Source: Aureispira sp. CCB-QB1 (GTDB taxonomy: Bacteria; Bacteroidota; Bacteroidia; Chitinophagales; Saprospiraceae). From it: a stretch of DNA of 64,000 nucleotides. The stretch's first letter is position 1; each line of letters begins with the position of its first letter. Below the pieces are notes generated by a model, which saw nothing but the letters and a program-made list of their open reading frames with translations, had not been told where the DNA came from and ran no database searches. Positions 9,895-60,849 of this stretch are shown one piece after another. The stretch spans positions 124,001 to 188,000 of the forward strand of contig NZ_JHBV01000042.1 of the NCBI RefSeq assembly GCF_000724545.1, in the 5' to 3' direction. The position numbers and the translations under genes were made by a program.

Positions 9895-10034
9895 TACTTC
9901 GTGGATTTTTTAGCTTTTTTGTAAAAAACTAAAAAAGCATCTTTGCATCAGTTTGATTATCAATTCTTTAAGAAATCAAGCAGCAAAAGTATACTCTATT
10001 GATAATCAAACTGATGCGATTTTCCCACGAAGTA
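9895..10034 (+). repeat. Repeat family R1, copy A: 140-bp element with terminal and internal inverted repeats
   Basis: The ends are perfect 10-bp inverted repeats, TACTTCGTGG (9895-9904) and CCACGAAGTA (10025-10034). Inside, a perfect 20-bp inverted repeat, beginning GCATCAGTTTGATTATC at 9945 and ending at 10017, encloses a 33-nt loop. A T/A-rich hairpin (CTTTTTTGT, then CTAAAAAAGC) follows the left end. The same element in reverse orientation is at 52203-52348, and a diverged copy is at 35927-36066. No coding frame is present. A TATCTTTG box ends 6 nt before the element (9881-9888). Confidence 0.85.
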
Positions 10035-10210
10035 ATGTGTATAGAATTTTATATTTTTTCGTTCTTAAAAAGAAGTAAACCTATTAAGAAAGAGTAGTAT
10101 AGATTCATAATGATGTCTTGAAAAATAGTTGTTTATGAATCGCGCTTGTTTTTTAAACTAAAAAACTAAATCAAATTATAAATTAACCCAATATTCCTAA
10201 ATTTTATCTT

Positions 10211-11014
10211 ATGCAAGCATTTGACACAAAATCATTACCTGCACCACTAAGAGCCATTGTTGTCTTTATGCAACGTCTTTGGTTTGCTTGGTGTTGTTTA
10301 GCAACATTACTAATTGGCGTGGTTGCTTTAGTGTGTTACATCTTCATTTTTAATTTCTTGAGTGGAAAGAAGGCTGCCAATGCAGCTTACTTTGTGACCA
10401 AGTGGTGGGGAAAAACCTTATTGGCAGCTATGTTGGTACGGGTAACTTCAGAGGGGCTAGAAAAAATTGATCCAGAAGCAGGTGCCTATGTTTTGGTAAG
10501 CAATCACTTATCAGTAGTAGATATTCCTATTTGTATGTCAACAGCACCAGTGCCATTTTCCTTTTTAGCCAAACAAGAAGTAGACAAATTGCCGATTGTT
10601 GGGTATTTGGCTAGAAATATGCACGTTTATGTAGACCGAAAAAGTAAGGAAAGCCGCAAGCAGACCCTAGAGCGTATGAAAGCGCATATTGATTCTGGTC
10701 ATTCTATTCATATTTATGCAGAAGGAACACGAAACAAAACGAATGAATTGTTGCAAGATTTTTATGATGGTGCCTTTAAATTGGCAATAGAAACACAACA
10801 GCCCATTGTGGCAATGACCATTTGTGATTCAGATAAAGTCTCGACTCCCAAAAAACCTTTTTTAGGTTCTCCTGCGTGGGTGCATTGTATTTGGGATGCT
10901 CCAATTTCGACAAAGGGAATGACGGTTGAAAATGACTTAGAACACCTCAAAACGATTGTTAGAGAACGTATCTTACACAATTTAGAACGTTATCATGCGA
11001 CGTATCACATTTAG
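10211..11014 (+). CDS. plsC: 1-acyl-sn-glycerol-3-phosphate acyltransferase (PlsC family)
   Basis: Transfers an acyl chain to lysophosphatidic acid in phospholipid synthesis, at the inner membrane. The acyltransferase block I NHLSVVD (98-104) supplies the catalytic His and Asp, and block III EGTRN (171-175) binds the glycerol phosphate. A hydrophobic segment at 15-50 anchors the protein. Length 267 aa fits the family. It is the only plus-strand gene between two minus-strand genes and ends 1 nt before the cox gene's stop, so transcription converges there. Specificity for the sn-2 position is inferred from the family; other lysolipid acceptors are possible. Confidence 0.85.
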   Translation: MQAFDTKSLPAPLRAIVVFMQRLWFAWCCLATLLIGVVALVCYIFIFNFLSGKKAANAAYFVTKWWGKTLLAAMLVRVTSEGLEKIDPEAGAYVLVSNHLSVVDIPICMSTAPVPFSFLAKQEVDKLPIVGYLARNMHVYVDRKSKESRKQTLERMKAHIDSGHSIHIYAEGTRNKTNELLQDFYDGAFKLAIETQQPIVAMTICDSDKVSTPKKPFLGSPAWVHCIWDAPISTKGMTVENDLEHLKTIVRERILHNLERYHATYHI

Positions 11015-11015
11015 A

Positions 11016-11624
11016 TTAAAAAAGCATATTTAGCAAGAAAAATAAGACTAGAAAAATCCACAAGCCATCTAAGAAATGCCAATAAATCGTTAATAACTGA
11101 AGTCGCATTCTTTTGACAGGATCTGAAAAGTATAATAAAACAGTCATAGGTTCTTGCATCTTTTTATAAGCATTGTATAAAAAGAGTGCTAAAAAAGGAA
11201 TTCCTCCAATAATATGCGCAAAATGCAGCCCCGAAATAGCATAAAGATAGTTCGCCCCGTTGCCAATGTTCTCTCCAATTAATGAAGATTTGAAATAAAA
11301 CCAACCCACCACTTGTGCTCCCATAAATAAAATGGTCAACATCATGGTGACGGTAAGTGCTTTTTGGTACCCTTTGGTGTCATCGTCTTTGTAAGCTCGA
11401 TTGGCTTTGTTCATAAAATAGCTACTAGCCAATAAAATAAAGGAATTGATAATAAAAATAGGAGGGAGATAGACCCCATCGGCACTATTTTGAGAACGTG
11501 TAAAAACATAGCCAATCGAAAATGCCATGAATAACATAGTCAGGCTGATTAGCAATAGGAATAAACCAATTTTTTCAAGTGGAAGTCCAACAGCTGAACG
11601 TTCCATGTTAGATTTTTTTGTCAT
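11016..11624 (-). CDS. Haem-copper oxidase subunit III
   Basis: A hydrophobic protein of about 200 aa with five or more membrane spans and the subunit III pattern: an N-terminal loop, GAQVVGWFYFKS, then GLHFAHIIGGIPFL and a final YWHFLDGLWIFLVLFF. Subunit III supports the catalytic subunits of cytochrome c or quinol oxidase without binding metals. The ATG at 11624 is chosen because the longer reading starts with GTG at 11654 and adds ten residues, while AGGA lies just upstream of the ATG. No other oxidase subunit is in the window, so it sits apart from the main cox locus. Confidence 0.85.
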   Translation of the reverse strand: MTKKSNMERSAVGLPLEKIGLFLLLISLTMLFMAFSIGYVFTRSQNSADGVYLPPIFIINSFILLASSYFMNKANRAYKDDDTKGYQKALTVTMMLTILFMGAQVVGWFYFKSSLIGENIGNGANYLYAISGLHFAHIIGGIPFLALFLYNAYKKMQEPMTVLLYFSDPVKRMRLQLLTIYWHFLDGLWIFLVLFFLLNMLF

Positions 11625-11764
11625 GTTGTGTCCTGCAAGGTATTGTAATGGCACAATAAATTAGTATTGATACAAATAGCATAAAGGATACTGCATGAGT
11701 AAGACTCATAAGAGACGCTTTGTAACTATTAACCTATGGAACAGCACCTTTATATTATGGTTCA

Positions 11765-14464
11765 TTAAAACCCATCAATATATTCTAAATCTCCTTCTTC
11801 TCCATTGTATTCAGGAATATCTTCCCATTCTTTGGGTTGTGCCAAGGGCTGAATTGTTGGTTGACTTGCTTCTATATTATTGTTTTTAGCAAATTCTGCA
11901 CGAAGGGTATTGGTAATCGCAGGCAACTCTTGACTCAACTGTGCGTCTAAGAATTTTTTACTGTGTTTGGGACCAATTTTATAATCATAATCCCCATACA
12001 AATTGCCCATAATGCGCGCATATATATTAAATAATCCTTGTTGGCGAGCTTTTATAGCTGTTTTATCTGGATTGTATCGTTTAAATTTATTAGCAATTAC
12101 CTGCCCTGCATTGATTTTTATTTTAAAATCCAAATCATGGTTGAAGCTATATTGTCCTCCAACAACTAAGTTCAAAGCATTGCTTTGAATAAACATAGCA
12201 GGCAATATAAATTTACCATGCTCGATTTTAAATTGATTTTTAAGCTTTGTGAAAGCTATATGTTGCAAGTCACGCATTTTGATAAAGGAAGAGAAACCTT
12301 CGAGCATTTTTAGATTAATCAACTCACCATTGGTAATTTCAACATCTGCCACCACAAATAAATCTTCGTTTTTGAAGTTGCCTAAAGAATCTAAAAATAA
12401 GTTTACTTTGATGAGTGATTTTAGGCGCCCTCTCAAGTGCTCTGCTGTTAAAACATCTTGACCAAAATTATCTAATTGTGCCAAAAATTCTTGGATATCA
12501 ATATTGTTACAATCTAAGAATAGCTCTAGGCGAGGTTCTTTTTCAAAATAGATTTTACTGTTCAGCTCAAAAAGACCATCCATGGCATCTACTTTGACCC
12601 CTTTTAGTTGCATGACACTTTTGTCAAACTCAACGGCTCCATTAAAGTTTTTGGCTAAGACATTGCCATATTGCAGCTCAACAATATTAGTAATAAAGGT
12701 TCCTTTTAGGAAGGAGGTACGATAAGCTCTTCGCTCGAAATTTTCTTGTTTGAGTGAATCTTGGTCTTCAACCGCAGCGGCTTCAATTTCTTCGGCGGTA
12801 TGTCCTCCACCAATGGCTAAAAGCTCGTCTAAATCCATTTTTTGAGAATTAAGAGAGGCTTGAAAGGTTAATTTAGCGTTTTGAGAATTTAAGGAATCAG
12901 AAAGCAATACAGGTAAGATATTTTGAAAATCGCCATTAAATACCATATCGCTTTTAGCTGTTTTGAAGGTAAGATTGGTAACGTTAAATGCATTGTTATC
13001 CAGCGATAATTCGCCTGTTTCTATATTTGTTGGTACATTATTAACGAGTAAATGTGCTTGATTAAAGTTGACTAAGCCATTTAGTTTGACTCTAGGGATA
13101 CGATACATAGAGGTCATGTCTTTGAGACGACCATTTAGTGAAAGCTGGGCAATTTCTATCCAGCCACTTCCTTCTGTAACAGTATTACCAAAGAAGCCAT
13201 AAACGGCATCTAGTGGAATTTTACCATCTAGCCCCATTGTAATTGTTGGGTTTTCCAAACCAACCATTTCCCAACTCAAGTTAATGGGTTGGTTATTTAG
13301 ATTTGCTTGAAAACCAATGAGCTTCAATTTAGCAGTTTGATCGTCTATTCCATTGCCATTGGTGAAGTGTACATCAAAATTTACATTTTTCATGCTGCCA
13401 GCCATATTGGGATGTGTAATTCGACCGTCTTTTAGACCAAATTGGACTTCAACAATGGGAGCAATTCGTTTGGAGGAAATGCCGTTGACTCTAGCGTTGA
13501 AGGATAGTTTTCCATAGCTCTCAAATTGCCCTAATGTAGCAGCATATTGCTCTGGAATCAACTGCATCAAAGATCCTAGCAATGCTTTTTTACTGTCAAA
13601 AAGAAGATTGTATTCTGTGCCTTTGTCTACTTTTTTGACAGAACCATGCATGTTAAATTGATTGCCTTCGATGTATAGTTTGATATTGTCAAAGGAATAG
13701 ATTTCCGCAGCCAAATCCAAATCAACAGAGCCATTGTAAGCTAAGTTAGTTCCTTTCATATAGGTCGTTTCACCAATTGTGATATGTTCTGAAAATAATT
13801 CAGCATAACTCGTCATGGTGTGCTGATTGGCGTTGACTTCATTATCAATAATAAAATCTCCTGCAAAATCGGCAGAACTAGCTCTAACCTTGATGTCATA
13901 GGCAGCCGCTTTGTCTACATAGTGAATGGTAATATTGGATAGTGTGGCATCAGAAATAGATAAATTCAAGTCGGTACTTTCATCTGTTTCTGTTTTTTCT
14001 GCTGAGCTTTTGAAAATATCATAGTTGACATGTCCTTTTTCGTCGCTATAGATAAATAAAGAGCCCTCATTGATGGATATGGATGTAAAATTGTAGTCGC
14101 CCATCAAAAGTCCTAAAGTACCGCATTGTAGAGAAATACTTTTAACATCCAGTAGTTTTTCCTCTTGCCCTCCTACACCGTCAATTTTAGCATCATTAAG
14201 GTAAACTGCGGCTTGTGGAAATTTCCAAATCAAAGACAAACTTGCTTCGCTTACTTGCAAATCTGTTTTCAGTTGCTTATTAAGTGTATTAATAACCATT
14301 CCTGCAATTTGTTTTTCAAATATGGCAGCAATAACAATGAGGCTGATGATGGAAATTAAAAATAAACTACCAATTAATTTGAATAAAAACTTGACACGAC
14401 CTTTTTTGCGTTTTTTTTGAGCTTTTTTTTGTTCGTCTCTTTTCTTGTAATTATCTACAGACAT
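11765..14464 (-). CDS. AsmA-family inner-membrane protein (bridge-like lipid-transport type)
   Basis: An 899-aa protein with a Lys/Arg-rich start, one transmembrane helix at about residues 25-48 (FLISIISLIVIAAIF), then a long periplasmic region of repeating beta strands. The segment after the helix (LNKQLKTDLQVSEASLSLIWKFPQAA) is typical of AsmA N-termini, and the region around 650-800 (FLAQLDNFGQDVLTAEHLRGRL, later LEGFSSFIKMRDL) resembles the AsmA C-terminal domain. AsmA-like proteins are thought to form hydrophobic grooves that carry phospholipid to the outer membrane. It is monocistronic, about 110 nt beyond the oxidase gene. The Pro/acidic C-terminal tail is unusual but has no known role. 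Confidence 0.85.
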   Translation of the reverse strand: MSVDNYKKRDEQKKAQKKRKKGRVKFLFKLIGSLFLISIISLIVIAAIFEKQIAGMVINTLNKQLKTDLQVSEASLSLIWKFPQAAVYLNDAKIDGVGGQEEKLLDVKSISLQCGTLGLLMGDYNFTSISINEGSLFIYSDEKGHVNYDIFKSSAEKTETDESTDLNLSISDATLSNITIHYVDKAAAYDIKVRASSADFAGDFIIDNEVNANQHTMTSYAELFSEHITIGETTYMKGTNLAYNGSVDLDLAAEIYSFDNIKLYIEGNQFNMHGSVKKVDKGTEYNLLFDSKKALLGSLMQLIPEQYAATLGQFESYGKLSFNARVNGISSKRIAPIVEVQFGLKDGRITHPNMAGSMKNVNFDVHFTNGNGIDDQTAKLKLIGFQANLNNQPINLSWEMVGLENPTITMGLDGKIPLDAVYGFFGNTVTEGSGWIEIAQLSLNGRLKDMTSMYRIPRVKLNGLVNFNQAHLLVNNVPTNIETGELSLDNNAFNVTNLTFKTAKSDMVFNGDFQNILPVLLSDSLNSQNAKLTFQASLNSQKMDLDELLAIGGGHTAEEIEAAAVEDQDSLKQENFERRAYRTSFLKGTFITNIVELQYGNVLAKNFNGAVEFDKSVMQLKGVKVDAMDGLFELNSKIYFEKEPRLELFLDCNNIDIQEFLAQLDNFGQDVLTAEHLRGRLKSLIKVNLFLDSLGNFKNEDLFVVADVEITNGELINLKMLEGFSSFIKMRDLQHIAFTKLKNQFKIEHGKFILPAMFIQSNALNLVVGGQYSFNHDLDFKIKINAGQVIANKFKRYNPDKTAIKARQQGLFNIYARIMGNLYGDYDYKIGPKHSKKFLDAQLSQELPAITNTLRAEFAKNNNIEASQPTIQPLAQPKEWEDIPEYNGEEGDLEYIDGF

Positions 14465-14545
14465 GTTTCAGTTATTTGTTTCTTTTGGATGTGTTTGATG
14501 TGTGTGACACGGTACTTAGATTAAAAACAATATCTATTCAATCAT

Positions 14546-14568
14546 TACTCCGTTGGAACTACGAAGTA
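14546..14568. repeat. R1-type terminal-repeat remnant
   Basis: TACTCCGTTG (14546-14555) and ACGAAGTA (14561-14568) face each other across 5 nt. These are the two end sequences of the R1 family placed almost back to back, so this looks like a minimal or collapsed copy. It lies just upstream of the AsmA gene and downstream of the tRNA terminator. Confidence 0.5.
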
Positions 14569-14625
14569 TTATTCAACTAAATTTACAAAAATCTATTCAA
14601 TAAGCTTGATTTGTGTATATCTAAA

Positions 14626-14658
14626 ACAAAAAAAGCTTCTACTAAAAAGTAGAAGCTT
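14626..14658 (-). terminator. Terminator of the tRNA-Val pair
   Basis: AAGCTTCTAC (14633-14642) pairs with GTAGAAGCTT (14649-14658) around a 6-nt loop. On the minus strand the stem is followed by a run of T (complement of the A-run at 14627-14634). It lies 5 nt past the second tRNA. Confidence 0.9.
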
Positions 14659-14663
14659 GATGT

Positions 14664-14737
14664 GGGTAATGAGGGATTCGAACCCCCGACCCCCTCGGTG
14701 TAAACGAGGTGCTCTGAACCAACTGAGCTAATCACCC
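14664..14737 (-). tRNA. tRNA-Val (anticodon UAC)
   Basis: On the minus strand the 74-nt sequence folds as a normal cloverleaf. The acceptor stem is GGGTGAT/ATTACCC, the D-arm contains GCTCAGTTGGTTCAGAGC, the anticodon stem CCTCG/CGAGG encloses TTTACAC with anticodon TAC, and the T-arm contains GGTTCGAATCC. The 3' CCA is not encoded. It is identical to the copy 62 nt upstream and is followed by a terminator. Confidence 0.97.
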
Positions 14738-14799
14738 GTAAAGAATTTGGATATAATTTGTAACTAAATACAAACTAACTATTTGAAGTGTTTTATAGT

Positions 14800-14873
14800 G
14801 GGTAATGAGGGATTCGAACCCCCGACCCCCTCGGTGTAAACGAGGTGCTCTGAACCAACTGAGCTAATCACCC
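14800..14873 (-). tRNA. tRNA-Val (anticodon UAC), second identical copy
   Basis: Base-for-base identical to the 14664-14737 copy, with the same anticodon TAC and no encoded CCA. The 62-nt spacer is unrelated to other sequence in the window, so the pair is probably one transcript processed into two tRNAs and ended by the hairpin at 14626-14658. Confidence 0.97.
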
Positions 14874-15114
14874 TATTTTGTTATCTCTTCTTTTAAGAGC
14901 AGCACAAAGATAGGGCATTTTTATAAAACTGCAAATTTTTTCTATTTTTTTTTAAAATAAAATTAAGATTTAAATAAAGTTAGTAGCTAGTGCTGTTGTT
15001 TATTGTCTTGGTTTATAATTGTATAGCATATATGAAGGAAGAAAATTAAAGCTTGAATTTTTTTTGTAATTTTTTTGTACCTTACTTAAAAAGTGAATCA
15101 AGTATCATTGCACT

Positions 15115-16119
15115 ATGAAAATACAAGCCATTCAAACCATCGCTAAGGTGAATTTTTCGAGATTTAAGCCTCAATCCAACAAAGGTTTTTATGAATCTTA
15201 CTTCATAAGGGGAAATCATCCTTCTGAAAAAAAAGCCTTTTGGATTCGTTACACTGTATTTGCTCCCAAAGATCGACCCCAAGAAAATATGGGAGAATTG
15301 TGGTTTGTTTATTTTGATGGCAATAAAATTTATCCTGCCAAGCAGGAATTCCCAATAGAAATGTGTAAGTTTCCTCGAAAGCATTTTTTTGTAGAATTGG
15401 GAGCGAATTTTATCAATAGTGCTCAAGCACAAGGACAGATTGAAGAGATCTCTTGGAAATTGAATTATACGTCAGCGGCAGCCCCTATTTTTTTATTGCC
15501 TCAAAACTTATATATAGGTCCATTTCCCAAAGCCAAGTCTATCGTTTCTCAACCTTTTGCTCGGTTTGGTGGATACTTAAAAATGGGCAATCAGAAAATT
15601 AATATTGAAAATTGGGTAGGGTCTCAAAACCATAATTGGGGAGAACAACACACCGATTGGTATGCTTGGGGGCAAGTAGCAGGTTTTGATAACAGCCCAG
15701 CTACTTTTTTGGAAGTAGTGACTGCTAAACTAAACATAAAAGGAGTGGAGACGCCTTTTTTAACGATCTTAGTATTGCACCACAATGAAAAAAAATATCA
15801 ATTGAATCAAATCAACCAATGGTTTACGAATAAAGGAAGTTTTGATTATTTTGATTGGACATTTGAATGTCAGACAAAGGAAATTCAATTAAAGGGAAGG
15901 ATTAAAGCTTCTGCCAATGATTTTGTCGGGTTGCGCTACTTGAATCCTTCTGGAGGAAGCAAAAATTGCCTGAACAGTAAAGTGGCTAGTTGTGAGTTGG
16001 AAATACGAGAAACCAATCAGTCTGGCATGCCTCAAGCATTATTTAGCGAGCACAAATGCGCTTTTGAATTATTAACTAACGAAGGACAAGAACATCATGG
16101 CATTAAAATCAATTTTTAA
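15115..16119 (+). CDS. Lipocalin-like protein, possibly AttH/CrtC-related
   Basis: A 334-aa soluble protein without a signal peptide, rich in beta strands and aromatic residues. The central segment QNHNWGEQHTDWYAWGQVAG resembles the His/Trp-rich motif of the two-lipocalin AttH/CrtC superfamily, whose CrtC members hydrate carotenoids. The match is by impression only. Its last 23 nt overlap the start of the SDR gene in another frame, so the two are translationally coupled and very likely act on the same, probably lipophilic, substrate. Alternatives are a non-enzymatic lipid-binding protein or a tocopherol-cyclase-like fold. Confidence 0.5.
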   Translation: MKIQAIQTIAKVNFSRFKPQSNKGFYESYFIRGNHPSEKKAFWIRYTVFAPKDRPQENMGELWFVYFDGNKIYPAKQEFPIEMCKFPRKHFFVELGANFINSAQAQGQIEEISWKLNYTSAAAPIFLLPQNLYIGPFPKAKSIVSQPFARFGGYLKMGNQKINIENWVGSQNHNWGEQHTDWYAWGQVAGFDNSPATFLEVVTAKLNIKGVETPFLTILVLHHNEKKYQLNQINQWFTNKGSFDYFDWTFECQTKEIQLKGRIKASANDFVGLRYLNPSGGSKNCLNSKVASCELEIRETNQSGMPQALFSEHKCAFELLTNEGQEHHGIKINF

Positions 16120-17494: not shown

Positions 17495-17535
17495 TGTTAG
17501 ATAATTAAATAGCTTTTTATATGGCTGTTGATTAG

Positions 17536-17569
17536 AATAGTCGGCTATTTTTTTAGTAGCCGACTATTT
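17536..17569 (+). terminator. Intrinsic terminator after the SDR gene
   Basis: AATAGTCGGCTA (17536-17547) pairs perfectly with TAGCCGACTATT (17557-17568) around a 9-nt T-rich loop. The following T-tract is short, so strength is uncertain. Confidence 0.7.
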
Positions 17570-17581
17570 AATTTATAGTAG

Positions 17582-17634
17582 TAGTTAGCTTCGCTGCTAC
17601 TGCGTGATTAGTTAGCTACGCTACTATTGCGTGG
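17582..17634. repeat. Repeat family R2, two tandem copies
   Basis: Two direct copies of a 25-nt unit, 27 nt apart, begin TAGTTAGCTTCGCTGC (17582) and TAGTTAGCTACGCTAC (17609), each ending in TGCGTG. The unit matches one arm of the hairpin at 39952-40012 and the fragments at 52441 and 60699. Confidence 0.7.
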
Positions 17635-17674
17635 TTTTAACGAACTATTGTGATAGAGTGTGGTTAATTTCTAT

Positions 17675-18799: not shown

Positions 18800-18871
18800 G
18801 AATGAAATTAGAGTTTTAATAGTTACAAAATTTTCTTTATAATGGTCTTGTTGTATCTGGGAATATCAATC

Positions 18872-19918: not shown

Positions 19919-20066
19919 GTTGTTTGCTTTATTGGTCTAAAAAGAGAAAGAGGGTTACTTTTAAAAAGAGTAAACCATCTATATATTAATCGTATTGAAG
20001 TTTATGTAGTTCGTGACTTTTTATAGACTGGCAACTTCACAAAGTGATGTTGTCTAACTTCATTGG

Positions 20067-28380: not shown

Positions 28381-28390
28381 TTATTGATGT

Positions 28391-35617: not shown

Positions 35618-35926
35618 ATTTTGAGTATTATAACTACATTTTATAACTGATCTATATGCCTTCATATAGGCTTCAGAGGTGCTTTTTATGTCGATTTTAT
35701 TGGTTCCGAAAATTGGAGAAAGATAAAATCGCCTAACTCCGTCTAATTAAGTGGATTATTGACAAGTAGTACCTTCAAGTATAATGTATGTTTTGAGGTT
35801 TATCTTTTGGAATGACGGGTGTTATTATATAATACCATCATGATAGAAAGATAAGTCTAGGAGAACCTATTGTTCTGTGATGCAGAATCGTAGGACGGAT
35901 TTTTATTATAGGAATAGTTTGTTTAA
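35618..35926. other. Intergenic DNA before repeat copy B
   Basis: Non-coding. It contains a 9-bp inverted repeat CGATTTTAT...ATAAAATCG near 35693-35732 and a short CTATATGCCTTCATATAG dyad. No coding frame or terminator run is apparent. Confidence 0.4.
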
Positions 35927-36066
35927 TACTCCGTTGATTTTTTAGTTTTCCTACGAAAAACGTAAAAAAGCATCTTGCATTAGTTTGATTATCAGTCTTT
36001 TAGTGTAAAGGTTAATAAAGGTGCATCTTGCTGATAATCAAACTAATACGATTTTTCAACGGAGTA
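35927..36066 (+). repeat. Repeat family R1, copy B, with a second terminal-repeat version
   Basis: 140 bp bounded by TACTCCGTTG (35927-35936) and CAACGGAGTA (36057-36066), again a perfect 10-bp inverted repeat but differing from copy A at two positions on each side. The internal dyad is GCATTAGTTTGATTATCAG (35977-35995) against CTGATAATCAAACTAATAC (36031-36049), with one mismatch. It lies 71 nt upstream of mbnP and could influence that leader. Confidence 0.85.
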
Positions 36067-36136
36067 ATGTTTGTTAAAACTACATTGTAAAAGTGTGGCT
36101 AACTACTATTCAAAACAACTTAAAATTTAAAAAAAA

Positions 36137-39951: not shown

Positions 39952-40012
39952 TAGTTAGCTTTGCTGCTACTACGTGGTCGTTGAAACCACGAAGTAGCAG
40001 CAAAGCTAACTA
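39952..40012. repeat. Repeat family R2, long hairpin copy
   Basis: A 26-bp inverted repeat with one mismatch and a 9-nt loop: the arm from 39952 begins TAGTTAGCTTTGCTGC and the return arm ends GCAGCAAAGCTAACTA at 40012. The bases at the loop (TACTACGTGG and CCACGAAGTA) match the ends of the R1 family. An additional half-copy (TTAGCTATGCTGCTACTA) lies at 39930-39947. No T-run follows, so it is not a standard terminator. Confidence 0.8.
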
Positions 40013-46382: not shown

Positions 46383-46388
46383 AGAGCA

Positions 46389-47201: not shown

Positions 47202-47203
47202 AC

Positions 47204-48149: not shown

Positions 48150-48157
48150 TATCTTTG
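48150..48157 (+). promoter_or_regulatory. Bacteroidota -7 box for the cob genes
   Basis: TATCTTTG is an exact TAnnTTTG. A start point about 7 nt downstream would give a short leader to the ATG at 48189. A correctly placed -33 TTG is not seen, so the call is partial. It also makes the longer TTG start at 48168 unlikely. Confidence 0.5.
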
Positions 48158-48188
48158 CAAACAGTCATTGACCTCAAAAAATGCAACA

Positions 48189-49190: not shown

Positions 49191-49192
49191 TT

Positions 49193-50514: not shown

Positions 50515-50518
50515 GTGT

Positions 50519-50950: not shown

Positions 50951-51076
50951 ATGCAGCGTTGTTTTGATACGAGCTAAAACTTTTTGTATTGGTTGCTTAT
51001 TGCTTTTTTTTAAAACTACTCATTACTCTTACAATCTATTAAATATAGTAATTTCAAGTTCAAAATAAGGCATTAT

Positions 51077-51985: not shown

Positions 51986-52202
51986 GAGAAACAAGTTAAG
52001 AATAATAGAACAGTGTGTTTACACGAAGTTAAGTAAAATAGAGGCCTCAAATGCTATTTTTCAATTAAAAGTGAATCAGCATGATAAGATAATACAACTC
52101 AACGGAAAGTTTAAGTGTAGAATTTTTTACTATTCCTTTTCGTTTGCGTATTTTTGTAGTCAATAACTCATTTAATAAATGAACTATTCAAGTTTCTAAC
52201 AT

Positions 52203-52348
52203 TACTTCGTGGGAAAATCGCATCAGTTTGATTATCATTATTAATAGAGTATATTTTTGTTGCTTGATTCTTTAAAGGGTTGATAATTAAGATGGTGTAA
52301 AGATGTTTTTGGGGTTTTTTACAAAAAAGCTAAAAAATCCACGAAGTA
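52203..52348 (-). repeat. Repeat family R1, copy C (reverse of copy A)
   Basis: Perfect 10-bp inverted ends TACTTCGTGG (52203-52212) and CCACGAAGTA (52339-52348). Read in reverse it repeats copy A at both ends: TGATAATCAAACTGATGCG then GATTTTCCCACGAAGTA. It is the first of three R1-like elements in front of map. Confidence 0.85.
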
Positions 52349-52423
52349 CTATTCTAAATAAGTGGGGAGAAAAAAGTAAGACTAAAATAAGGTTGTTTGA
52401 CTACGCTGTTATTGCTTAGTCAT

Positions 52424-52526
52424 TACTCCGTTGAAACTATGTAGTAGCAGCGAACTGAGCTTCGCAAGTTCACAGTAACAAAACAAAGCGATCTCGTGAA
52501 GTCGAAACTAAAAAAGCAACGGAGCA
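52424..52526 (-). repeat. R1-like composite element with R2 core, copy E
   Basis: TACTCCGTTG (52424-52433) and CAACGGAGCA (52517-52526) match as inverted ends with one mismatch. The interior contains the R2-type string GTAGTAGCAGCGAACT (52441-52456), so the two families are joined here. The AAACTAAAAAAGCAACGG end resembles the ends of C and D. Confidence 0.65.
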
Positions 52527-52573
52527 TTATTAGTGTAATATATTATAAAATAGTTGATGGCTTACGAAAAAAA

Positions 52574-52620
52574 TACTTTGTGATATAAAGAGTTTTTTGC
52601 AAAAAAACATTCACGAAGTT
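52574..52620 (-). repeat. Short degenerate R1-like element, copy G
   Basis: TACTTTGTGA (52574-52583) and TCACGAAGTT (52611-52620) are imperfect inverted ends (8 of 10 pairs) around an A/T-rich hairpin TTTTTTGC/AAAAAAAC. It stands directly in front of map. Confidence 0.5.
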
Positions 52621-52662
52621 ATGATTAAGTAGGCACCAAAAAATAAGATAACGAACAAAAAA

Positions 52663-53463: not shown

Positions 53464-53710
53464 TTGCACTGTAAATTTTAGTTTTCTTAAAGAAAACTTA
53501 TGTAATACCTAAAAATAATACAAAAGCTATTTAAACACCTGTTGTTTGAGTGGCTTTTTCTATATTTATGAAGTTGCTTTTTAATCGTAACAATGTTTAG
53601 AAATGGATGCTTGCTGATAACATGGTTTGGTTGGAAAGGCATAACATATCGACAGCTACAACACTTGAAATAACCTATTTTTTTTGGAAACTTGATAACT
53701 GTTTTGCCAC

Positions 53711-55273
53711 TTGAAGAAAATTGATAAATTAATTGTACGAAGCTTTTTGCCACCTCTGATCATCTGGACATTGGTTGCTATGTTTATCTTTAACATGCAA
53801 TTTCTTTGGAAATATATTGATGATATTATTGGCAAGGGACTGGATCTTTCAATTATTTTTGAATTGTTATTTTACCAATCATTAGCAATGATTCCTCGTG
53901 CAATGGTTTTTGGGGTTTTGATTGCATCGGTAATGACTTTAGGAAATTTAGCCGAGCATTACGAACTGGTAACCATGAAATCGGCAGGAATGTCTTTGTT
54001 TAGAGTAATGTCTCCTTTGATCTTTTTTGCCTTTACCTTAGCAGGCGTCTCCTTTCTATTTTCGGATCAATTGATCCCTGTAACGGCTCTTAAATTTAAG
54101 TCTACTCTCTATGATATTCGCAAACAAAAGCCTGCTCTTTCATTCAAAGAGGGACAGTTTAACGATGATTTTCAGAAGGTTTCTATTTTTGTAGACAAAA
54201 AAGCACCTAGTGGAAAGGTGTTGAAAGGACTGAAAATCTATGATCATACCACTACTGTTGGTTATAAGGGACAAACCAATGCAGAATCAGGAGGATTGTT
54301 TTATGCTAGAGATACCTTACAAACAACGGTAAAAGCAACAATTCAAGATTCCATAATAAACAAAGACACAACAATTCAAAGAAGCTTTTTGGTCGTCAAA
54401 CTTAAGAATGGAACTCGCTACGAAGAAATGGATCCCGATAGTAAGAAACCCAATGCTTACCCTCACATAGAGATGAACTTTGACACGTATACGACTTTAT
54501 TTGACATGAGCGAATTTGAGTTTAATGAAACCAATGAGGATTTGTTTAAGGGGCATTACAGTTTGTTGACAACTAGGCAATTATTGCGGGCAATAGACTC
54601 TTTGTTCAAGAAGCGAGAGGAACGTTATGAAATGCTAAAAAGAAATGCAGATGCGATGTTCCACTTTCGAAGAGAGGGCTTAGCTGAGCCAGGAGTAGAT
54701 ACTATAGAGATGATTCCGACGAGATATGCCAAGCATTATTACCCTCCAAATGCAGCACATGCACCTAAAGTTGAATTGGATACTACCGTTCATAATTTTT
54801 ATGATTATATTCCACAAAGCAAGCGAGATTATATCTATCAACGTGCTTCTGGTTTTTGTCAGAATGTCAAAGGACAGGCTAATGGCGTTGCTAAGTATTG
54901 CAAAACAAGTGAAAAGATACATGCAGAACACGAAAATGAAATTCATCAAAAATTTTCGTTTGCTTTAGCTTGTTTACTTTTCTTATTTATTGGCGCCCCA
55001 ATGGGAGCAATTATACGAAAAGGAGGCTTTGGATGGCCAATATTGGTAGCCTTTATCTTCTTTATGTCGTTTTTTGTGTTATTTTTAGTTGGCGAGCGAT
55101 TGGCAACAAGTTTATCTGTTCCTTGTTGGGTTGGATCTTGGTTGCCTAATTTAGTATTGTTGCCTTTTGGCTTGATGTTAACCCACAAAGCATTATACGA
55201 TTCAAGGTTTATTAGTATGGAAAAGGTGCTAAACCTTTTGCAATGGATTAAGGGGATTTTTAGCCGAAAATAA
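53711..55273 (+). CDS. LptF/LptG-family permease (YjgP/YjgQ)
   Basis: A 520-aa membrane protein that moves lipopolysaccharide to the outer membrane as part of the LptB2FG transporter. Motifs: the KKIDKLIVRSFLPPLIIW N-terminus, helices at the start and the last third, and a large periplasmic beta region between. The middle has an insertion of about 150 residues, so it is longer than the usual 350-400 aa. The gene starts with TTG at 53711; the frame has no better ATG near. It could be LptF or LptG; the sequence does not decide. Confidence 0.85.
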   Translation: MKKIDKLIVRSFLPPLIIWTLVAMFIFNMQFLWKYIDDIIGKGLDLSIIFELLFYQSLAMIPRAMVFGVLIASVMTLGNLAEHYELVTMKSAGMSLFRVMSPLIFFAFTLAGVSFLFSDQLIPVTALKFKSTLYDIRKQKPALSFKEGQFNDDFQKVSIFVDKKAPSGKVLKGLKIYDHTTTVGYKGQTNAESGGLFYARDTLQTTVKATIQDSIINKDTTIQRSFLVVKLKNGTRYEEMDPDSKKPNAYPHIEMNFDTYTTLFDMSEFEFNETNEDLFKGHYSLLTTRQLLRAIDSLFKKREERYEMLKRNADAMFHFRREGLAEPGVDTIEMIPTRYAKHYYPPNAAHAPKVELDTTVHNFYDYIPQSKRDYIYQRASGFCQNVKGQANGVAKYCKTSEKIHAEHENEIHQKFSFALACLLFLFIGAPMGAIIRKGGFGWPILVAFIFFMSFFVLFLVGERLATSLSVPCWVGSWLPNLVLLPFGLMLTHKALYDSRFISMEKVLNLLQWIKGIFSRK

Positions 55274-55480
55274 GTTATATCCAATAAAAAAAGCAGCAAA
55301 GCCTACTATACTCTAAGAACAATTTTACCCGCTAGATTGTATCTATGTTGACAACTTTTGTACGACACGAAGTATACATCAATAGAAGTTTTTTATCAAG
55401 CTAATACGGTTTTAAGCATGCTCTAAAGCGAATTACAAATCAAAGCAATAGATTTACCAACGAATATACCCCACGATAAA

Positions 55481-56215
55481 ATGACAAAAGAAGCAACTAC
55501 CATATCTGATTTAACAATAGCAGATCGCAATTTACAAGCTCAAATTGACCATTTTGTAGCAGAAAACAGATGGTATATTGCGAGTTTTTTATTGCTTTGG
55601 GGAATTGCTTGTTATTTTTTGATGGGGGTATTGAGCAAAGGAGATGTGATTTTATTCTTTGCAGAAAATCGAAGCGAACTAAAAAATACATTTTTCCTCT
55701 TTTGCACTTATATAGGAGAGGGCTATGTGTACTTGTTGGCTACAATCGTCCTATTGTTTTCAGGTTATTCAAGAAGTTTGGCTATTTGTCTGAATGCTAT
55801 ATTGGTTTTGACAATTAGTCATGCCTTAAAGGTTTTCTTTGCCCATGAACGCCCAGTTCGTTATTTTGATAATTTATTAGAGCAACCCGATTTGCCGAAT
55901 TATGTTCCCGATGTTGTTTTGTTAGATGGATGGACAACTAGCTTTCCTTCTGGGCATACAACATCTGCTTTTGCATTTTACAGTCTTTTAGCATTTTTCA
56001 TCCCCAATAAATGGATTAAAATGTTGTGTTTGTTGCTGGCAACCTTAGTAGGGCTTTCTAGAATGTACTTGGTTCAGCATTTTTTGAAAGATGTAACTAC
56101 GGGAATGTTGACAGGTTTTTTGATTGCTTTGATAGTGTATTGGGGACATGAAATGCTATCACCTAGTGTTACTAGCAAGAAATTACGATTAAGAAGAAAG
56201 AAGGCTAACCATTAG
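55481..56215 (+). CDS. PAP2-superfamily phosphatase
   Basis: A 244-aa membrane enzyme with the three PAP2 motifs: KVFFAHERP (KxxxxxxRP), PSGHT, and SRMYLVQHFLKD (SRxxxxxHxxxD). About six hydrophobic spans are visible. Members dephosphorylate lipid phosphates such as undecaprenyl pyrophosphate, phosphatidylglycerol-phosphate or lipid A groups. The presence of the LptF/G-like gene just upstream makes an envelope role likely. Specificity is unknown. Confidence 0.9.
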   Translation: MTKEATTISDLTIADRNLQAQIDHFVAENRWYIASFLLLWGIACYFLMGVLSKGDVILFFAENRSELKNTFFLFCTYIGEGYVYLLATIVLLFSGYSRSLAICLNAILVLTISHALKVFFAHERPVRYFDNLLEQPDLPNYVPDVVLLDGWTTSFPSGHTTSAFAFYSLLAFFIPNKWIKMLCLLLATLVGLSRMYLVQHFLKDVTTGMLTGFLIALIVYWGHEMLSPSVTSKKLRLRRKKANH

Positions 56216-56250
56216 TATCTGGAAATAAAAATACAGCCCAAAGGTTACTT

Positions 56251-56326
56251 TACTTCGTGGAAAATAAACACAAGTATTAACTTCCAACACTTATTATTGC
56301 CATCATCAAAAAAGCGTTACGAAGTT
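56251..56326. repeat. Degenerate R1-like element overlapping a terminator, copy F
   Basis: TACTTCGTGG (56251-56260) is the left R1 end; the right end is degenerate (TTACGAAGTTATT, 56317-56329). The AAAAAAGCGTTACGAAG segment resembles the end of copy D. Its right half forms part of the terminator stem at 56310-56344. Confidence 0.5.
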
Positions 56327-56344
56327 ATTCTCCATAACGCTTTT
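56310..56344. terminator. Bidirectional terminator between PAP2 and SPFH genes
   Basis: AAAAGCGTTA (56310-56319) pairs with TAACGCTTTT (56335-56344) around 15 nt. A-runs and T-runs on either side let it end the plus-strand PAP2 gene and the minus-strand SPFH gene. Confidence 0.85.
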
Positions 56345-56402
56345 AGAAGCTTATTGATAATTGTTTGGTAATTGATCAAAAGGGTCACCTTTTGACAGTC
56401 AC

Positions 56403-57383
56403 TTAATCTAAGCTTTTATTAATATCTAAAATATCCTTTTCTTTCTGAGCAAATGTTTTCTTAACAGTGGGAATCTTAGTACGATCTTTACTCAATCGAT
56501 TAATTTCGTCAGCCATTAAATTACCTTCCATAAGTTGTTGTTGCAAATTTTGTAAATTGCCAGGAGAATAAGGAACAATAATAGAGCTGTTTTTCTCTCC
56601 AACTTCCTTGATGGTATCGTAATGTTGTGTTAATAGAACGAACTGCATAATTTCGATTGGAGATACATCGTTAAGTGTGTTGCTAAAATCTTCTACAGAA
56701 TCTGCAAAACCTTTGATGATTGCTAAACGTTGTTCGGCAACCCCTTCTCCTTGCAAACGTTTGGATTCTTTATCGGCTTCCGCATCTTTAATTTTTGCAA
56801 TTTTTCGTCCTTCTGCATCTTCATAAATCGCCTCTTTGTTGCGTTTAGCAGCATTGATTCGGTTCATAGATTCTTTTACCATTGCATCGGGATCAATGTC
56901 AGTAATCAAGGTTTGGACAATACGATAACCGTATTTTTCCATATGTTCAGACAACTCTGTCTTTACTGCTGTAGCAATATCGTCCTTACGAGCAAATACA
57001 TCATCCAATTCTAATTTAGGAACTTCAGCGCGAACGGTATCAAAAATATACGAAGATATTTGACTATATGGATCGTCCAATTCATAGAAAGCTTCTTTTA
57101 CCTTACTCTTCATGATTTGCACATGTACCGAAACTTGTAGTTTTACAAATACATCATCTTTTGTTTTTGTCTCAATATGGATGTCCAACTGTTGAACTTT
57201 GAGGTTAACGGTTCCTGCAACAGTTTCTAAGATGGGAACACAAAAGTTAATACCTGGGTGTAAAATTCTGTTAAAACTACCCAAGCGTTGAACAATTTTT
57301 GCTGATTTTTCTTGAACTACTTTTACTGTGGAAAAGAGAAAAAACAGAAAAACAACCGCAGTGACAATAATAAATGGATCCAT
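56403..57383 (-). CDS. SPFH/Band 7 (stomatin-like, QmcA type) membrane protein
   Basis: A 326-aa protein with an N-terminal membrane helix (FIIVTAVVFLFFLFSTV), then the Band 7 domain (VVQEKSAKIVQRLGSFNRIL; VKLQVSVHVQIMKSKV; PKLELDDVFARKDDIATAV), a coiled-coil region (AKRNKEAIYEDAEGRKIAKI) and a tail. Such proteins organise membrane microdomains or regulate proteases. ATG at 57383 is the preferred start because the longer frame starts at TTG and adds 35 residues with no clear function. It is monocistronic. Confidence 0.88.
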   Translation of the reverse strand: MDPFIIVTAVVFLFFLFSTVKVVQEKSAKIVQRLGSFNRILHPGINFCVPILETVAGTVNLKVQQLDIHIETKTKDDVFVKLQVSVHVQIMKSKVKEAFYELDDPYSQISSYIFDTVRAEVPKLELDDVFARKDDIATAVKTELSEHMEKYGYRIVQTLITDIDPDAMVKESMNRINAAKRNKEAIYEDAEGRKIAKIKDAEADKESKRLQGEGVAEQRLAIIKGFADSVEDFSNTLNDVSPIEIMQFVLLTQHYDTIKEVGEKNSSIIVPYSPGNLQNLQQQLMEGNLMADEINRLSKDRTKIPTVKKTFAQKEKDILDINKSLD

Positions 57384-57552
57384 AGACGCTGATATTTTGA
57401 GAAGGTTATTAATTAAGATTAAAAATAGATATTGTCCAGCCTTTTTAAGTATTTTGTGTGCCAAACGATGATTAATATAGAGAATCAATCATTATCTAAT
57501 ATAATAAATAATGTGGAACGATGAATAAGAGTTCCCAATAATCATAAAAAAG

Positions 57553-57852
57553 ATGCGAATTACATTTGTTTTGATAATACTGAGTTGGTATGTATGGGCT
57601 TGTTCTGCACCCGAGAGTAAACGCCAAACCATTTCAGGAGTAGAGATTTATAAAACACGTTGTGTGACTTGCCATGGAACCGATGGTAGAATGGGAATGA
57701 ATGGCGCCAAAGAATTACCTGACTCGCCTTTGAATGCGGCGCAACGAATAGAGGTGGTCACACATGGTAGAAACATTATGCCTGGATTCAAAGAAATGTT
57801 ATCAGAAGAAGAAATAAAGGCAGTTGTAGAGTTTACAATGACTTTAAAGTAA
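57553..57852 (+). CDS. Monohaem c-type cytochrome, lipoprotein
   Basis: A 99-aa protein with a signal peptide ending in the lipobox-like WACSAPES, then the haem motif CVTCHG and a distal Met in NIMPGFKEM. It carries electrons in the periplasm or at the membrane. The partner is unknown; no oxidase or reductase gene is beside it. The GNAT remnant follows after 15 nt. Confidence 0.85.
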   Translation: MRITFVLIILSWYVWACSAPESKRQTISGVEIYKTRCVTCHGTDGRMGMNGAKELPDSPLNAAQRIEVVTHGRNIMPGFKEMLSEEEIKAVVEFTMTLK

Positions 57853-57867
57853 ATAGTAGTAGGATGT

Positions 57868-58419
57868 ATGAAAAAGATGATCGAATCTAAACGGTGGGTA
57901 ATCCGATTATTGGGAAAAAAGGATGCAGCGAAACTTCAGCAGTATTATAGTAAGAACAAAGCTTTTTTTTAACCTTGGATGCCAACGTATGCGCCCAATC
58001 GATTTCAATTAGAATATATAGAAGCCAGTATTGTCGTTTCGCTCGATCATTATCAAAAAGGAGTTTTGCTTCCTTTTATAGTATTACATCCTATAACTGA
58101 TGAGCTAATAGGCACCATTACCTATTCTCAAATTCAAAGAGGAGTTGCTCAATATTGTTGTGTAGGATATAATATATCTGAAACTTGGAATGGTATGGGT
58201 GTCGCAACAGAGGCTTTGGAAGCAACCAATCGTTATGTTTTTGAAGTGTTGAACTTGCATCGGATAGAGGCTAATATATTGCCTGTCAATAAGGGATCTA
58301 TTCGAGTAGTAGAAAAGTTGGGCTTTGAAAAAGAAGGGATTTGTAAGGCTTTGTTAAAAATTGATGGACATTGGCAAGACCATATAAGATATGCTTTAAT
58401 TAATCCTCTAGTTGAATAA
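57868..58419 (+). pseudogene. GNAT N-acetyltransferase (RimJ/RimL type) interrupted by an in-frame stop
   Basis: A continuous GNAT reading frame runs from ATG 57868 to the stop at 58417-58419, apart from one TAA at 57970-57972. Residues before it (SKRWVIRLLGKKDAAKLQQYY, ending NKAFF) and after it (PWMPTYAPNRFQLEYIEAS...) join as a normal RimJ/RimL protein: the family motif FF-x-PWMP spans the stop. The acetyl-CoA-binding core GVATEALEAT and the C-terminal strand GFEKEGICKALLK are intact. The stop follows a run of eight T. A single substitution (for example AAA or GAA to TAA) explains it; an indel would shift the frame, which has not happened. Translation might restart at ATG 57979, but that product would lack the first strand and helix. 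Confidence 0.75.
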
Positions 58420-58462
58420 TAACCTACTAGAGTCGAGCCGATAGTATCAAACTCCAACAACT

Positions 58463-59098
58463 ATGTATTATCCAATTAAGATTCCAAAGTGGTTTCAAAA
58501 ACTTTTTCCAGCTTATCTGTGGAGAGGGGCAACAGGGCAAAATAAAAAACAACTTTATTTGACATTTGATGATGGTCCGATTCCACAAATAACGCCTTGG
58601 GTATTGGATCAACTTAGAGCATATAAGGCCAAAGCAACTTTCTTTTGTGTTGGTGCCAATGTGCAAAAAAACAAAGCAATTTATCAACGGATTTTAAATG
58701 AAGGACATCAAGTCGGAAACCATACTTTTAATCATGTCAATGGTTGGAAAACAAAACACCAAGATTACATCACAAATGTTACGGCATGTAGGGAACAGGT
58801 CGAAAGCAAGCTTTTTAGACCTCCTTATGGGCGCCTAAAATGGCAGCAAGCCAAGGAACTACGCAAGGATTATAAGATTGTAATGTGGGAAGTTTTGGCA
58901 GGCGATTTTGATGCTTCTATAACAGGAGAACAGTGTTGGCAAAATGTATGTCAGTCAGCTAAAAATGGTTCTATCATAGTTTTGCACGATAGCCAAAAAT
59001 CATGGCAGCATTTGTCCTATGTATTGCCGAAGTTATTAGAACATTATCATCGACAAGGATTTACTTTTGAAGCGATAACTATAGAAGACGAAAGCTAG
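58463..59098 (+). CDS. Polysaccharide deacetylase (NodB-type)
   Basis: A 211-aa carbohydrate esterase 4 protein. LYLTFDDGPIP supplies the catalytic and metal Asp pair, HTFNHVNG the His ligands, FRPPYGRLK the third motif, and VLHDSQKS the C-terminal His. It removes acetyl groups from chitin-like or peptidoglycan sugars. There is no signal peptide, so it may be cytoplasmic or membrane-peripheral. It converges with the membrane-protein gene, 9 nt between stops, and may serve the neighbouring glycan genes. Confidence 0.9.
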   Translation: MYYPIKIPKWFQKLFPAYLWRGATGQNKKQLYLTFDDGPIPQITPWVLDQLRAYKAKATFFCVGANVQKNKAIYQRILNEGHQVGNHTFNHVNGWKTKHQDYITNVTACREQVESKLFRPPYGRLKWQQAKELRKDYKIVMWEVLAGDFDASITGEQCWQNVCQSAKNGSIIVLHDSQKSWQHLSYVLPKLLEHYHRQGFTFEAITIEDES

Positions 59099-59107
59099 AG
59101 CAATACC

Positions 59108-60508
59108 CTAGTTTAGAGGTACCGTTTGTATTGTTGTATTGGGACTTGAAAGCGGTGGTGGCGGAGCAACTTTAGGCTTTCGTACTTTGTCCAGTAACAA
59201 AACCATAGCAATGTAATAAAATGGTAAACAAGGAATTTTATACCGAGCTAAGGCACCAAAATTAAAGGAAGTGAAGCCAACTGCAAAGGCAAAAATAATC
59301 GCAAAAATTAAACAGAACAGAATAACAGGATCACTGAATATGGCTTTTAACGTTTTAAAAACACCTACTTTAAAAAATACGTAGATGGTGAAACCTAACG
59401 TAAATAAGGCTTCGGCAGCTGATGGCAAAACGATGATTTTTGTGGCTTCCCAAGGATAGGGACGAAAAAGAGCTACGTTAACTGCTTTGGGAAATGTGGC
59501 AATTAAACCACCTAAAGAAGGGTCTAAAACTCCTAAATCATACCCTGTGCCATTGTCTCGTTCTGTACTCAGCTTTAACCACCACTGAACCTTTGCCGCT
59601 TCTTCCAAGAAACCTTCTAAAGTATATTCTGAAAAAACGCTGCCCAGTTGTTGTATAACAATTACGCCCCCTAAGGCTCCTACGCCAAAAAAAATAGGGG
59701 TCGCTAATTTTCTTAAAGTATCATTTTTGATGCGCTCTTTGATCATAAAAAAGACCCAAACAACAGTTGCTGGAAAAATAGCGACCAAAACATATACCTT
59801 AATATTTTTCATCAAGAAAGCTCCCATGATAATAAAAAAGATAGAACGCAGTATTTTTTTCTTTTTGCTAATCAAACTATAATAAATACCATTAACAAAA
59901 AAGCCTAAGGCTCCAATAACAATAGAATCTTTCATGATACCTGTGCTCCAAAACCACATAGAGGGCAAAAATAAAACGGCAAGTGCTATTGGAAAATGTA
60001 AGTGAGGAACGAGGTCATAAAAAACTCGATACATTGCCCAACAGCCTAAAAAACTAAAGACAGTTAAAGCAAAGGAGGTGCCTATATAAGTGCCAAACCC
60101 TAATGGGCTAACAATTCCTGCTAATTTAATTACCATTGCCTCTTTCGGGTTGACAAAGAAGCCACGTAAAGTAACCGAATTGTAAGCTTCTAAGGACCAC
60201 TGTTTATAGTCAACGGCAATAAGCTCGTAAGCGGTTCCTGGATTGTTGAGCATGGCATTGTAAATATCTCTTGCACCAAAGAAATAAAAAAAAGTATCTC
60301 CATAACCATAATAATATTGATACATCAATGCGGTTAGGATGGCTCCCAACAAGCGAAGACCTAATGCAGGTAGAAAATATTTTTTTATAATATCGTTGGA
60401 GTACTTTCTGTTTCGGTAGAAATAGAAAATGAGCACCCAGATCACCAAGAAAAAAGGCAATAAGATAAAATCTTTCGTATAAAGTATTTGCCATGCAAGT
60501 AAAAACAT
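59108..60508 (-). CDS. Multi-pass membrane protein of unknown function
   Basis: A 466-aa protein with about ten hydrophobic spans and a large extracytoplasmic region around residues 90-130 (GYGDTFFYFFGARDIYNAML) and 290-330. Features such as the start LAWQILYTKDFILLPFF and the final Pro-rich tail do not match a family I can name. It lies between a deacetylase and a GT4 glycosyltransferase, so a role in glycan polymerisation or transport is possible but unsupported. Confidence 0.7.
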   Translation of the reverse strand: MFLLAWQILYTKDFILLPFFLVIWVLIFYFYRNRKYSNDIIKKYFLPALGLRLLGAILTALMYQYYYGYGDTFFYFFGARDIYNAMLNNPGTAYELIAVDYKQWSLEAYNSVTLRGFFVNPKEAMVIKLAGIVSPLGFGTYIGTSFALTVFSFLGCWAMYRVFYDLVPHLHFPIALAVLFLPSMWFWSTGIMKDSIVIGALGFFVNGIYYSLISKKKKILRSIFFIIMGAFLMKNIKVYVLVAIFPATVVWVFFMIKERIKNDTLRKLATPIFFGVGALGGVIVIQQLGSVFSEYTLEGFLEEAAKVQWWLKLSTERDNGTGYDLGVLDPSLGGLIATFPKAVNVALFRPYPWEATKIIVLPSAAEALFTLGFTIYVFFKVGVFKTLKAIFSDPVILFCLIFAIIFAFAVGFTSFNFGALARYKIPCLPFYYIAMVLLLDKVRKPKVAPPPPLSSPNTTIQTVPLN

Positions 60509-60698
60509 ACTAGATAAAGCTGTATTTTGTGCTTGAAAGATTAAGAGGATGTTGCGTCACCAATTTAAAGTTATCCCTTGGGTGTATGATGAAAATATAA
60601 AGGTACGCAAATATTGTATCTAGTGCAAAAATAAAACTCAAGCATTTTAATGTACCTTTGAGAAGGGGGAAATAAATAAAAGGAAGGCAGCACAAACT

Positions 60699-60718
60699 AG
60701 TAGCAGTGTTGCTAACTA
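60699..60718. repeat. R2-type fragment
   Basis: AGTAGCAGTGTTGCTAACTA is a variant of the R2 arm. It lies 60 nt upstream of R1 copy D in the region between the divergent membrane-protein and glycosyltransferase genes. Confidence 0.5.
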
Positions 60719-60777
60719 AAAGCAAAGTGCTCGCGAAGTGCCACGGAGCTAAATTGATGGGGCTTTCCAACAAACAA

Positions 60778-60849
60778 TAGTTCGTTGAAAAACTAATATA
60801 AATGTGCTTTTTTATCTTTTTGGTAAAAAAGTAAAAAAGCAACGAACTA
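60778..60849 (-). repeat. Repeat family R1, copy D, third terminal-repeat version
   Basis: A 72-bp form with perfect inverted ends TAGTTCGTTG (60778-60787) and CAACGAACTA (60840-60849). Relative to copy B, positions 3 and 5 and their partners in the other arm are changed together. The interior keeps the TTTTTTA/TAAAAAAG hairpin. It lies immediately before the glycosyltransferase start. Confidence 0.8.

Follow-up and report, generated by a model that had tools for sequence, protein, structure and literature searches.

A small mobile inverted-repeat element of Aureispira with matched ends and a fast-changing hairpin tip

We characterized a family of short repeats, designated R1, in a 64,000-nucleotide stretch of DNA (hereafter, the window) from Aureispira sp. 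CCB-QB1. The window corresponds to positions 124001-188000 of contig C42 in the 7.37 Mb draft genome of this strain (184 contigs) and was compared with a complete genome of the same species, taken as that of Aureispira sp. CCB-E. R1 is well supported as a non-autonomous mobile element, i.e., a miniature inverted-repeat transposable element (MITE), because copies are flanked by target duplications, some of their sites are precisely empty in the second strain, and the genome contains an insertion sequence whose ends are similar. A preliminary description of the window had offered a non-autonomous mobile element as one of two readings, and this part of it was borne out. The two ends of R1 differ between subfamilies by paired changes, a coupling that is probably due to recognition of both ends by a single enzyme, the transposase. 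As a whole, a MITE whose matched ends result from recognition of both by a single transposase is very likely the best explanation of the family.

R1 is 146 bp long and has 13-bp inverted ends, of which the inner 10 bases are complementary. Beside the left end is an A/T-rich hairpin; beyond it, an inner dyad (18-22 bp) encloses a ~37-nt tip (element positions 72-108). With hairpin and dyad, the entire strand can form a three-way junction. Three end types were distinguished: A (TAGTACTTCGTGG...CCACGAAGTAATG), B (TAATACTCCGTTG...CAACGGAGTAATG) and D (TAGTAGTTCGTTG...CAACGAACTATTG). The paired changes described earlier, at positions 5 and 9 between A and B and at positions 3 and 5 between B and D, were correct. 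Genome searches, for which the best 40 of 291 (A query), 386 (B) and 494 (D) first-look candidates were scored (the A-query list also includes B copies) and elements of up to 200 bp were accepted, yielded 80 distinct oriented two-ended copies in the fetched DNA of this genome: 37 B, 31 D and 12 A. The length was 146 bp in 55 of these 80, leaving no room for a transposase gene, and the 10-bp arms were fully complementary in 52 of the 66 aligned copies, as is typical of MITEs; the genome-wide search for ends proposed in the preliminary description was thus productive. An end-pair scan of the 298-kb contig C14 (no more than 3 mismatches per end) detected 21 R1-like loci, or ~500 genome-wide if extrapolated, a rough figure obtained without a chance control. 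The pattern TACTYCGTKG occurred 472 times in the genome (67 times for the reversed control), many of the 472 belonging to other small modules and not to R1. One hybrid element common to both strains (L091) had a D-type end on one side and a B-type end on the other, and its flanks share AATTA by eye. A k-mer assembly of over-represented sequences produced two short motifs only.

R1 was said to lie always between genes. This holds for most copies: two of the 80 emptied targets fell inside an open reading frame of at least 100 aa, compared with 243 of 400 random points. Gene context could be classified for 62 of the 80 copies, with 21 in tandem arrangement on the same strand, 17 in tandem on the opposite strand, 12 between divergent genes and 12 between convergent genes. 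Outside the two strains, exact matches to a pattern drawn from the right R1 half were found in 57 stretches of a genome collection; 55 were in two uncultured Aureispira metagenome-assembled genomes (MAGs), and the other two were in one Dokdonia and one Sulfurovum MAG, perhaps mis-binned. The B query had no match at E 0.001 in another genome of the genus (G021). No match of copy B was detected in a phage collection, hence a phage home for R1 is unsupported. We did not meet the element among the top-ranked matches of the literature on repetitive and transposable DNA of Aureispira or on IS701 miniature elements, which is weak evidence of absence.

Movement is evident from the flanking sequences. 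Among 74 loci (90 less eight without both ends and eight duplicates; boundaries are doubtful in two, L019 and L075), exact flank duplications of 6 bp were present in 44, of 5 bp in 13 and of 7 bp in 10 (classes may overlap), whereas re-pairing of the flanks gave expectations of 0.83, 0.63 and 0.2, respectively. The target-site duplications that had been proposed as a check are therefore present, and their near-fixed length is that expected of a MITE. In the public Aureispira MAG set, exact 5-7 bp duplications bordered 33 of the 41 R1 copies with agreeing ends, a share that is somewhat inflated because the choice of the left boundary rewarded duplication. Of the distinct R1 sites mapped to the second strain, nine of 31 were cleanly empty there and 152-154 bp shorter (eight are shown base by base), although these stretches were mostly chosen for apparently absent copies and the fraction is not a rate; contig C14 and the window offer less biased comparisons. 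Conversely, one D copy (C14:97518, duplication ATTTAA) was present only in the second strain. Such presence and absence with precise empty sites is again characteristic of MITEs and makes R1 a source of strain differences within Aureispira.

The same observations bear on the possibility that R1 is a REP/REPIN-like element moved by a hairpin-reading Y1 transposase (IS200/IS605, RAYT), which would share with R1 the palindromic, foldable structure, the intergenic location and the many copies. Y1 enzymes are not known to duplicate their targets on insertion. R1, by contrast, has consistent 6-bp duplications, and its empty sites are clean and retain a single copy of the target; the genome also contains a DDE element that resembles R1 in its ends and equals it in duplication length. 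On the evidence of the duplications, we rejected the Y1 mechanism as very improbable, the transposase searches of the genome having covered DDE_Tnp_1 only.

Four copies of R1 are located in the window, and the three versions of the 10-bp ends were confirmed in them (9895/10034 in copy A, 35927/36066 in B, 52203/52348 in C and 60778/60849 in D; shuffled expectation 0.03-0.07 matches for each end 10-mer). The element runs 3 bases beyond the 10-bp ends on both sides. Copy A (9892-10037, plus strand) is a full 146-bp element with A-type ends, an A/T hairpin at about 9905-9937, dyad arms at 9945-9962 and 10000-10017 and a tip at 9963-9999; it is flanked by a 5-bp duplication, TGTAT (9887-9891 and 10038-10042). 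Copy B (35924-36069, plus strand) is also full-length, with B-type ends and the duplication TTTGTT (35918-35923 and 36070-36075). Copy C (52200-52351, minus strand; 152 bp) has A-type ends and the duplication TTCTAA (52194-52199 and 52352-52357), while copy D (60775-60852, minus strand; 78 bp) has D-type ends and is internally deleted, its duplication AACAAA (60769-60774 and 60853-60858) being read directly from the sequence. Copy B is absent from the second strain, which reads through a single TTTGTT at the empty site; the site of copy A is occupied there, and copies C and D are aligned through. The dyad reported for copies A and B was found in both, and the hairpin ascribed to all copies is retained in D, which has lost the dyad; in C both hairpin and dyad have decayed. 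A fifth copy, E, had been listed as well. This sequence (52421-52623, plus strand) has a B-type left end, a damaged right end and a different, mosaic interior, and is merely an R1-like remnant. Elsewhere in the window, a pair of identical tRNA-Val(tac) genes separated by 136 bp occupies 14662-14873, and an unpaired B-type end is close by at 14546.

We further examined the pairing of the ends and the dyad. In 35 copies, 98.0% of the cells were paired in the ends and 93.2% in the dyad, with double changes in four of 10 end pairs and three of 18 dyad pairs. Double-change cells numbered 61, whereas shuffles gave 24, with none of 500 reaching 61, and slid versions at most 14. The paired share, the double-change cells and the score were all above every shuffle, a result that relatedness alone can also cause. 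Two other counts did not exceed the shuffles, because everything rests on three subfamilies: that of doubly changed pairs (7 versus 6.2 in shuffles, 183 of 500 reaching 7) and that of further pair types (14 versus 15.7, 500 of 500 reaching 14). Within subfamilies, 20 end changes in the 66 copies affected one arm and 3 affected both. As 20 of these 23 changes are one-sided, pairing is not conserved at the level of the single copy, and we rejected selection for pairing at each copy.

These results speak against a structured RNA or DNA module whose base pairing is selected at each locus, e.g., a bidirectional terminator or regulatory hairpin, with compensatory changes. Such a module would agree with the pairing of both helices and the excess of double-change cells, with the mainly intergenic location and with the strong folding as DNA of copies A, B and D (z of -7.8 to -7.9, versus -1.7 for the inner 146 bases of copy C). 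The few independent events in three subfamilies and the uncompensated end changes, on the other hand, weigh against it. The stems also diverge between strains about like the flanks: R1 outside the tip differed at 18 of 3270 sites (0.55%) in 30 ortholog pairs, and the flanks at 142 of 32472 (0.44%) in all 41 pairs. Strain-specific presence and the occurrence in all gene contexts fit insertion better, and a search of the window against Rfam at gathering thresholds detected two tRNAs only, with no family for R1. We consider a selected module improbable, and the second reading of the preliminary description, in which a folded module is selected for its pairing, is unsupported for individual copies.

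A search of the genome with Pfam DDE_Tnp_1 (E 0.01) identified four transposases, one of which belongs to a 1,365-bp IS701-like insertion sequence (L113:1282-2646, the same as L115:1480-2844). This element has perfect 22-bp ends (CAATACTTCGTTGAAGTATTAA) and a 6-bp duplication, TTATGC, and its site is exactly empty in the second strain (-1371 bp). Its transposase (429 aa) scored 30.5 bits with DDE_Tnp_1 (cut-off 23), and D100, D186 and E327, which are invariant across nine rows, probably form the DDE triad, to judge from their positions. Over 13 bases, its end agrees with the right ends of R1 types D, A and B at 12, 11 and 11 positions, respectively, and with their left ends at 10, 10 and 11. 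The search for a transposase with matching ends, also suggested earlier, found this one element with similar ends, the likeness being 12 of 13 at best, for the D right end. A first contig scan with the transposase protein detected no relative, and a PDB sequence search gave three weak membrane-protein matches only (E 0.16 or more). Among 150 genomes of the family, 20, its own included, had matches to the L113-type transposase.

These relatives serve as a comparison for coupled ends. Both ends were available for nine elements from 30 loci (the element itself and eight of 29 relative loci; L117, with a single end, and L142-L144 were excluded). The two ends were identical at 14 of 14 positions within eight elements and had two mismatches in one, while 3.1 of 14 positions differed on average between elements; the agreement is favoured by sampling, as some elements were located via a matching pair and others via a common 11-base pattern. 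The R1 ends fall inside the range of this group. Coupled ends in related insertion sequences suggest that two-end recognition by one transposase explains the covariation of the R1 ends. In the mechanism that we propose, a DDE transposase of the IS701-like group would bind both R1 ends and move R1 in trans; with one enzyme reading both, a new end sequence would spread only if both ends carried it, which would give rise to the paired changes that separate subfamilies A, B and D. Once inserted, copies accumulate uncompensated changes in their ends. The inner-arm tip, for its part, resembles a transition hotspot. More generally, 'covarying' inverted ends among repeats need not mean selected base pairing, as two-end recognition by a transposase also gives coupled ends.

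The assignment to IS701 is incomplete. In the accessible text of De Palmenaer 2008 (PMC2266710), the terminal consensus of IS701 is ---YACT-Y--YR, and the end of our insertion sequence agrees with it at 7 of 7 fixed positions. The best NCBIfam model was IS701_3, at 92.3 bits, under the model cut-off of 170. The element is 1,365 bp long versus 1,400-1,550 bp given for IS701 in the same text (PMC2266710), and its transposase, unlike those of IS701, has the complete Y-2-R-3-E-3-R motif reported there for ISH3.

Several observations weigh against this insertion-sequence group as the helper of R1 or against two-end recognition as a full account. The duplication of the L113 element is 6 bp and that described for the IS701 family in the available text is 4 bp (PMC2266710). 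Of seven group members in which a duplication could be sought, two (L115 and L128) had an exact 6-bp one, whereas no duplication of 3-9 bp was present in five (L116, L122, L123, L125 and L129); L118 and L120 extend to a contig end. Loci L142, L143 and L144, with partial or broken transposase frames, carry differing end-like matches on their two sides. R1 and the L113 element are alike in the end tips only and not in subterminal sequence. The element is single-copy in its genome, though strain-specific R1 copies exist; the second strain has no match to it at E 1e-10, yet has strain-specific R1 copies too. At E 1e-5, two R1-rich Aureispira assemblies of unstated completeness contained an 87-residue fragment (G150) and no match (G151), and no intact transposase. 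In the second strain, 30 loci of 43 DDE_Tnp_1 matches were scanned and none was flanked by R1-type ends as a transposon, and one copy of the 468-aa type carries other ends. The actual helper may therefore be lost or of another family. Finally, the conserved inner dyad goes unexplained by end recognition. Folding may play a role, perhaps in a transposition intermediate: the dyad should be expendable for a DDE transposase, yet keeps pairing via the double changes noted above.

Some of these points would be accounted for if R1 were mobilized by a different DDE transposase and resembled the IS701-like ends by common descent only. The scarcity of the L113 element in both strains and its absence or fragmentation in the two other R1-bearing assemblies agree with this, as does the difference in the outer bases of the left end (TAG/TAA). 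The agreement in duplication length does not, and no such ends were found on the other DDE_Tnp_1 transposons examined, three in the genome of strain CCB-QB1 and those in the second strain, DDE_Tnp_1 being the only family searched. We regard another helper as possible but doubtful. DDE_Tnp_1 matches numbered 43 at E 0.05 in the complete genome and 4 at E 0.01 in the draft; multi-copy elements may be lost at contig breaks of the latter.

An unexpected and unusual part of R1 is its fast-changing tip. In 30 of the 41 ortholog pairs, those with 146-bp copies, the 37-nt tip differed at 46 of 1109 sites, and 43 of these differences were transitions. On contig C14, 292 of 26272 fourfold sites differed (1.11%; 226 transitions), as did 191 of 43318 intergenic sites outside R1 (137 transitions). 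The tip thus exceeds the fourfold sites (p = 6.5e-13), while the remainder of R1, which diverges about like its flanks, is slower than these. Three outlier pairs (L045/L194, L087/L154 and L076/L235) hold 22 of the 46 differences; without them the tip differed at 24 of 999 sites (p = 0.0008 versus fourfold sites). Among paralogs, 18 of 19 tip columns with a minor base in at least two copies were transitions in type B, and 19 of 20 in type D. A crude count of polarity gave 24 G-to-A or C-to-T changes, 12 in the reverse direction and 3 transversions.

These changes possibly reflect a single-strand hotspot, local conversion between copies, or relaxed constraint on the tip together with constrained stems. 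Relaxed constraint alone is argued against by the fourfold control. In a rough conversion test on the 15 ungapped pairs among 18 ortholog pairs that differed in the tip, the ortholog was closest in 9, there was a tie in 2 and a sampled paralog was closer in 4, and gene conversion may accordingly explain some of the differences. Copying can leave the tip unchanged, as two copies at different sites of the second strain (L150 and L151) share the same tip sequence. More speculatively, and in our view rather unlikely, the inner arm might extrude in vivo as a DNA hairpin whose single-stranded 37-nt tip is a transition hotspot (e.g., by cytosine deamination), the fold itself contributing to what the transposase or the replication machinery recognizes. 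If so, each R1 copy would record single-strand exposure at its own locus. As the predicted single-stranded part changes several-fold faster than the predicted stems, the mutable tip could serve to examine whether extrusion of long palindromes takes place in the chromosomes of bacteria.

R1 also contains nested modules. Inserts of ~20-35 bp (e.g., TACTTCGTGAGTGCTGCGCAGT and CTAAGCTTGCGATCTCACGACCGCAGGGAGC) were present at recurring places in L008, L017, L036, L038, L039 and L046-L049 of strain CCB-QB1 and in L161, L167 and L170 of the second strain. Three ortholog pairs (L096/L161, L097/L167 and L098/L170) differ by 20 bp, being longer in the second strain, and the difference in L097/L167 is, base by base, an insert in the loop of the A/T hairpin; such differences suggest that small modules were gained, lost or converted within R1. 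Another module, CCACGCAGTAGCAGCGAAGCTAA, had 14 matches in C14 (no more than 3 mismatches; 0 for the reversed control) and four in the window, both inside and outside R1, and near two of its places in the window (17585-17634 and 39955-40009) the strains differ by 10- and 14-bp indels. At C14:231149, a 32.7-kb stretch absent from the second strain has apparent inverted copies of ~18 bases at both edges and is possibly a large integrated or transposing element.

Small dispersed repeats nested in other repeats, as in many R1 copies, are said to have been described by Elhai in 2008 in cyanobacteria, a different phylum. TIMEs are reportedly derived from Tn3, unlike R1. Like R1, they are non-autonomous miniature inverted-repeat elements, and according to the title of the source, they generate mosaics (PMC4133298). 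Another likeness is found in the BrickBuilt MITE of Porphyromonas gingivalis, which, in the accessible part of its description (PMC4596501), is a short, geneless element with inverted ends that occurs in many intergenic copies in a Bacteroidota host, as R1 does. Compared with BrickBuilt as portrayed there, R1 lacks a minisatellite; its three-way-junction fold, its three end types, the empty sites and the proposed IS701-like helper also set it apart.

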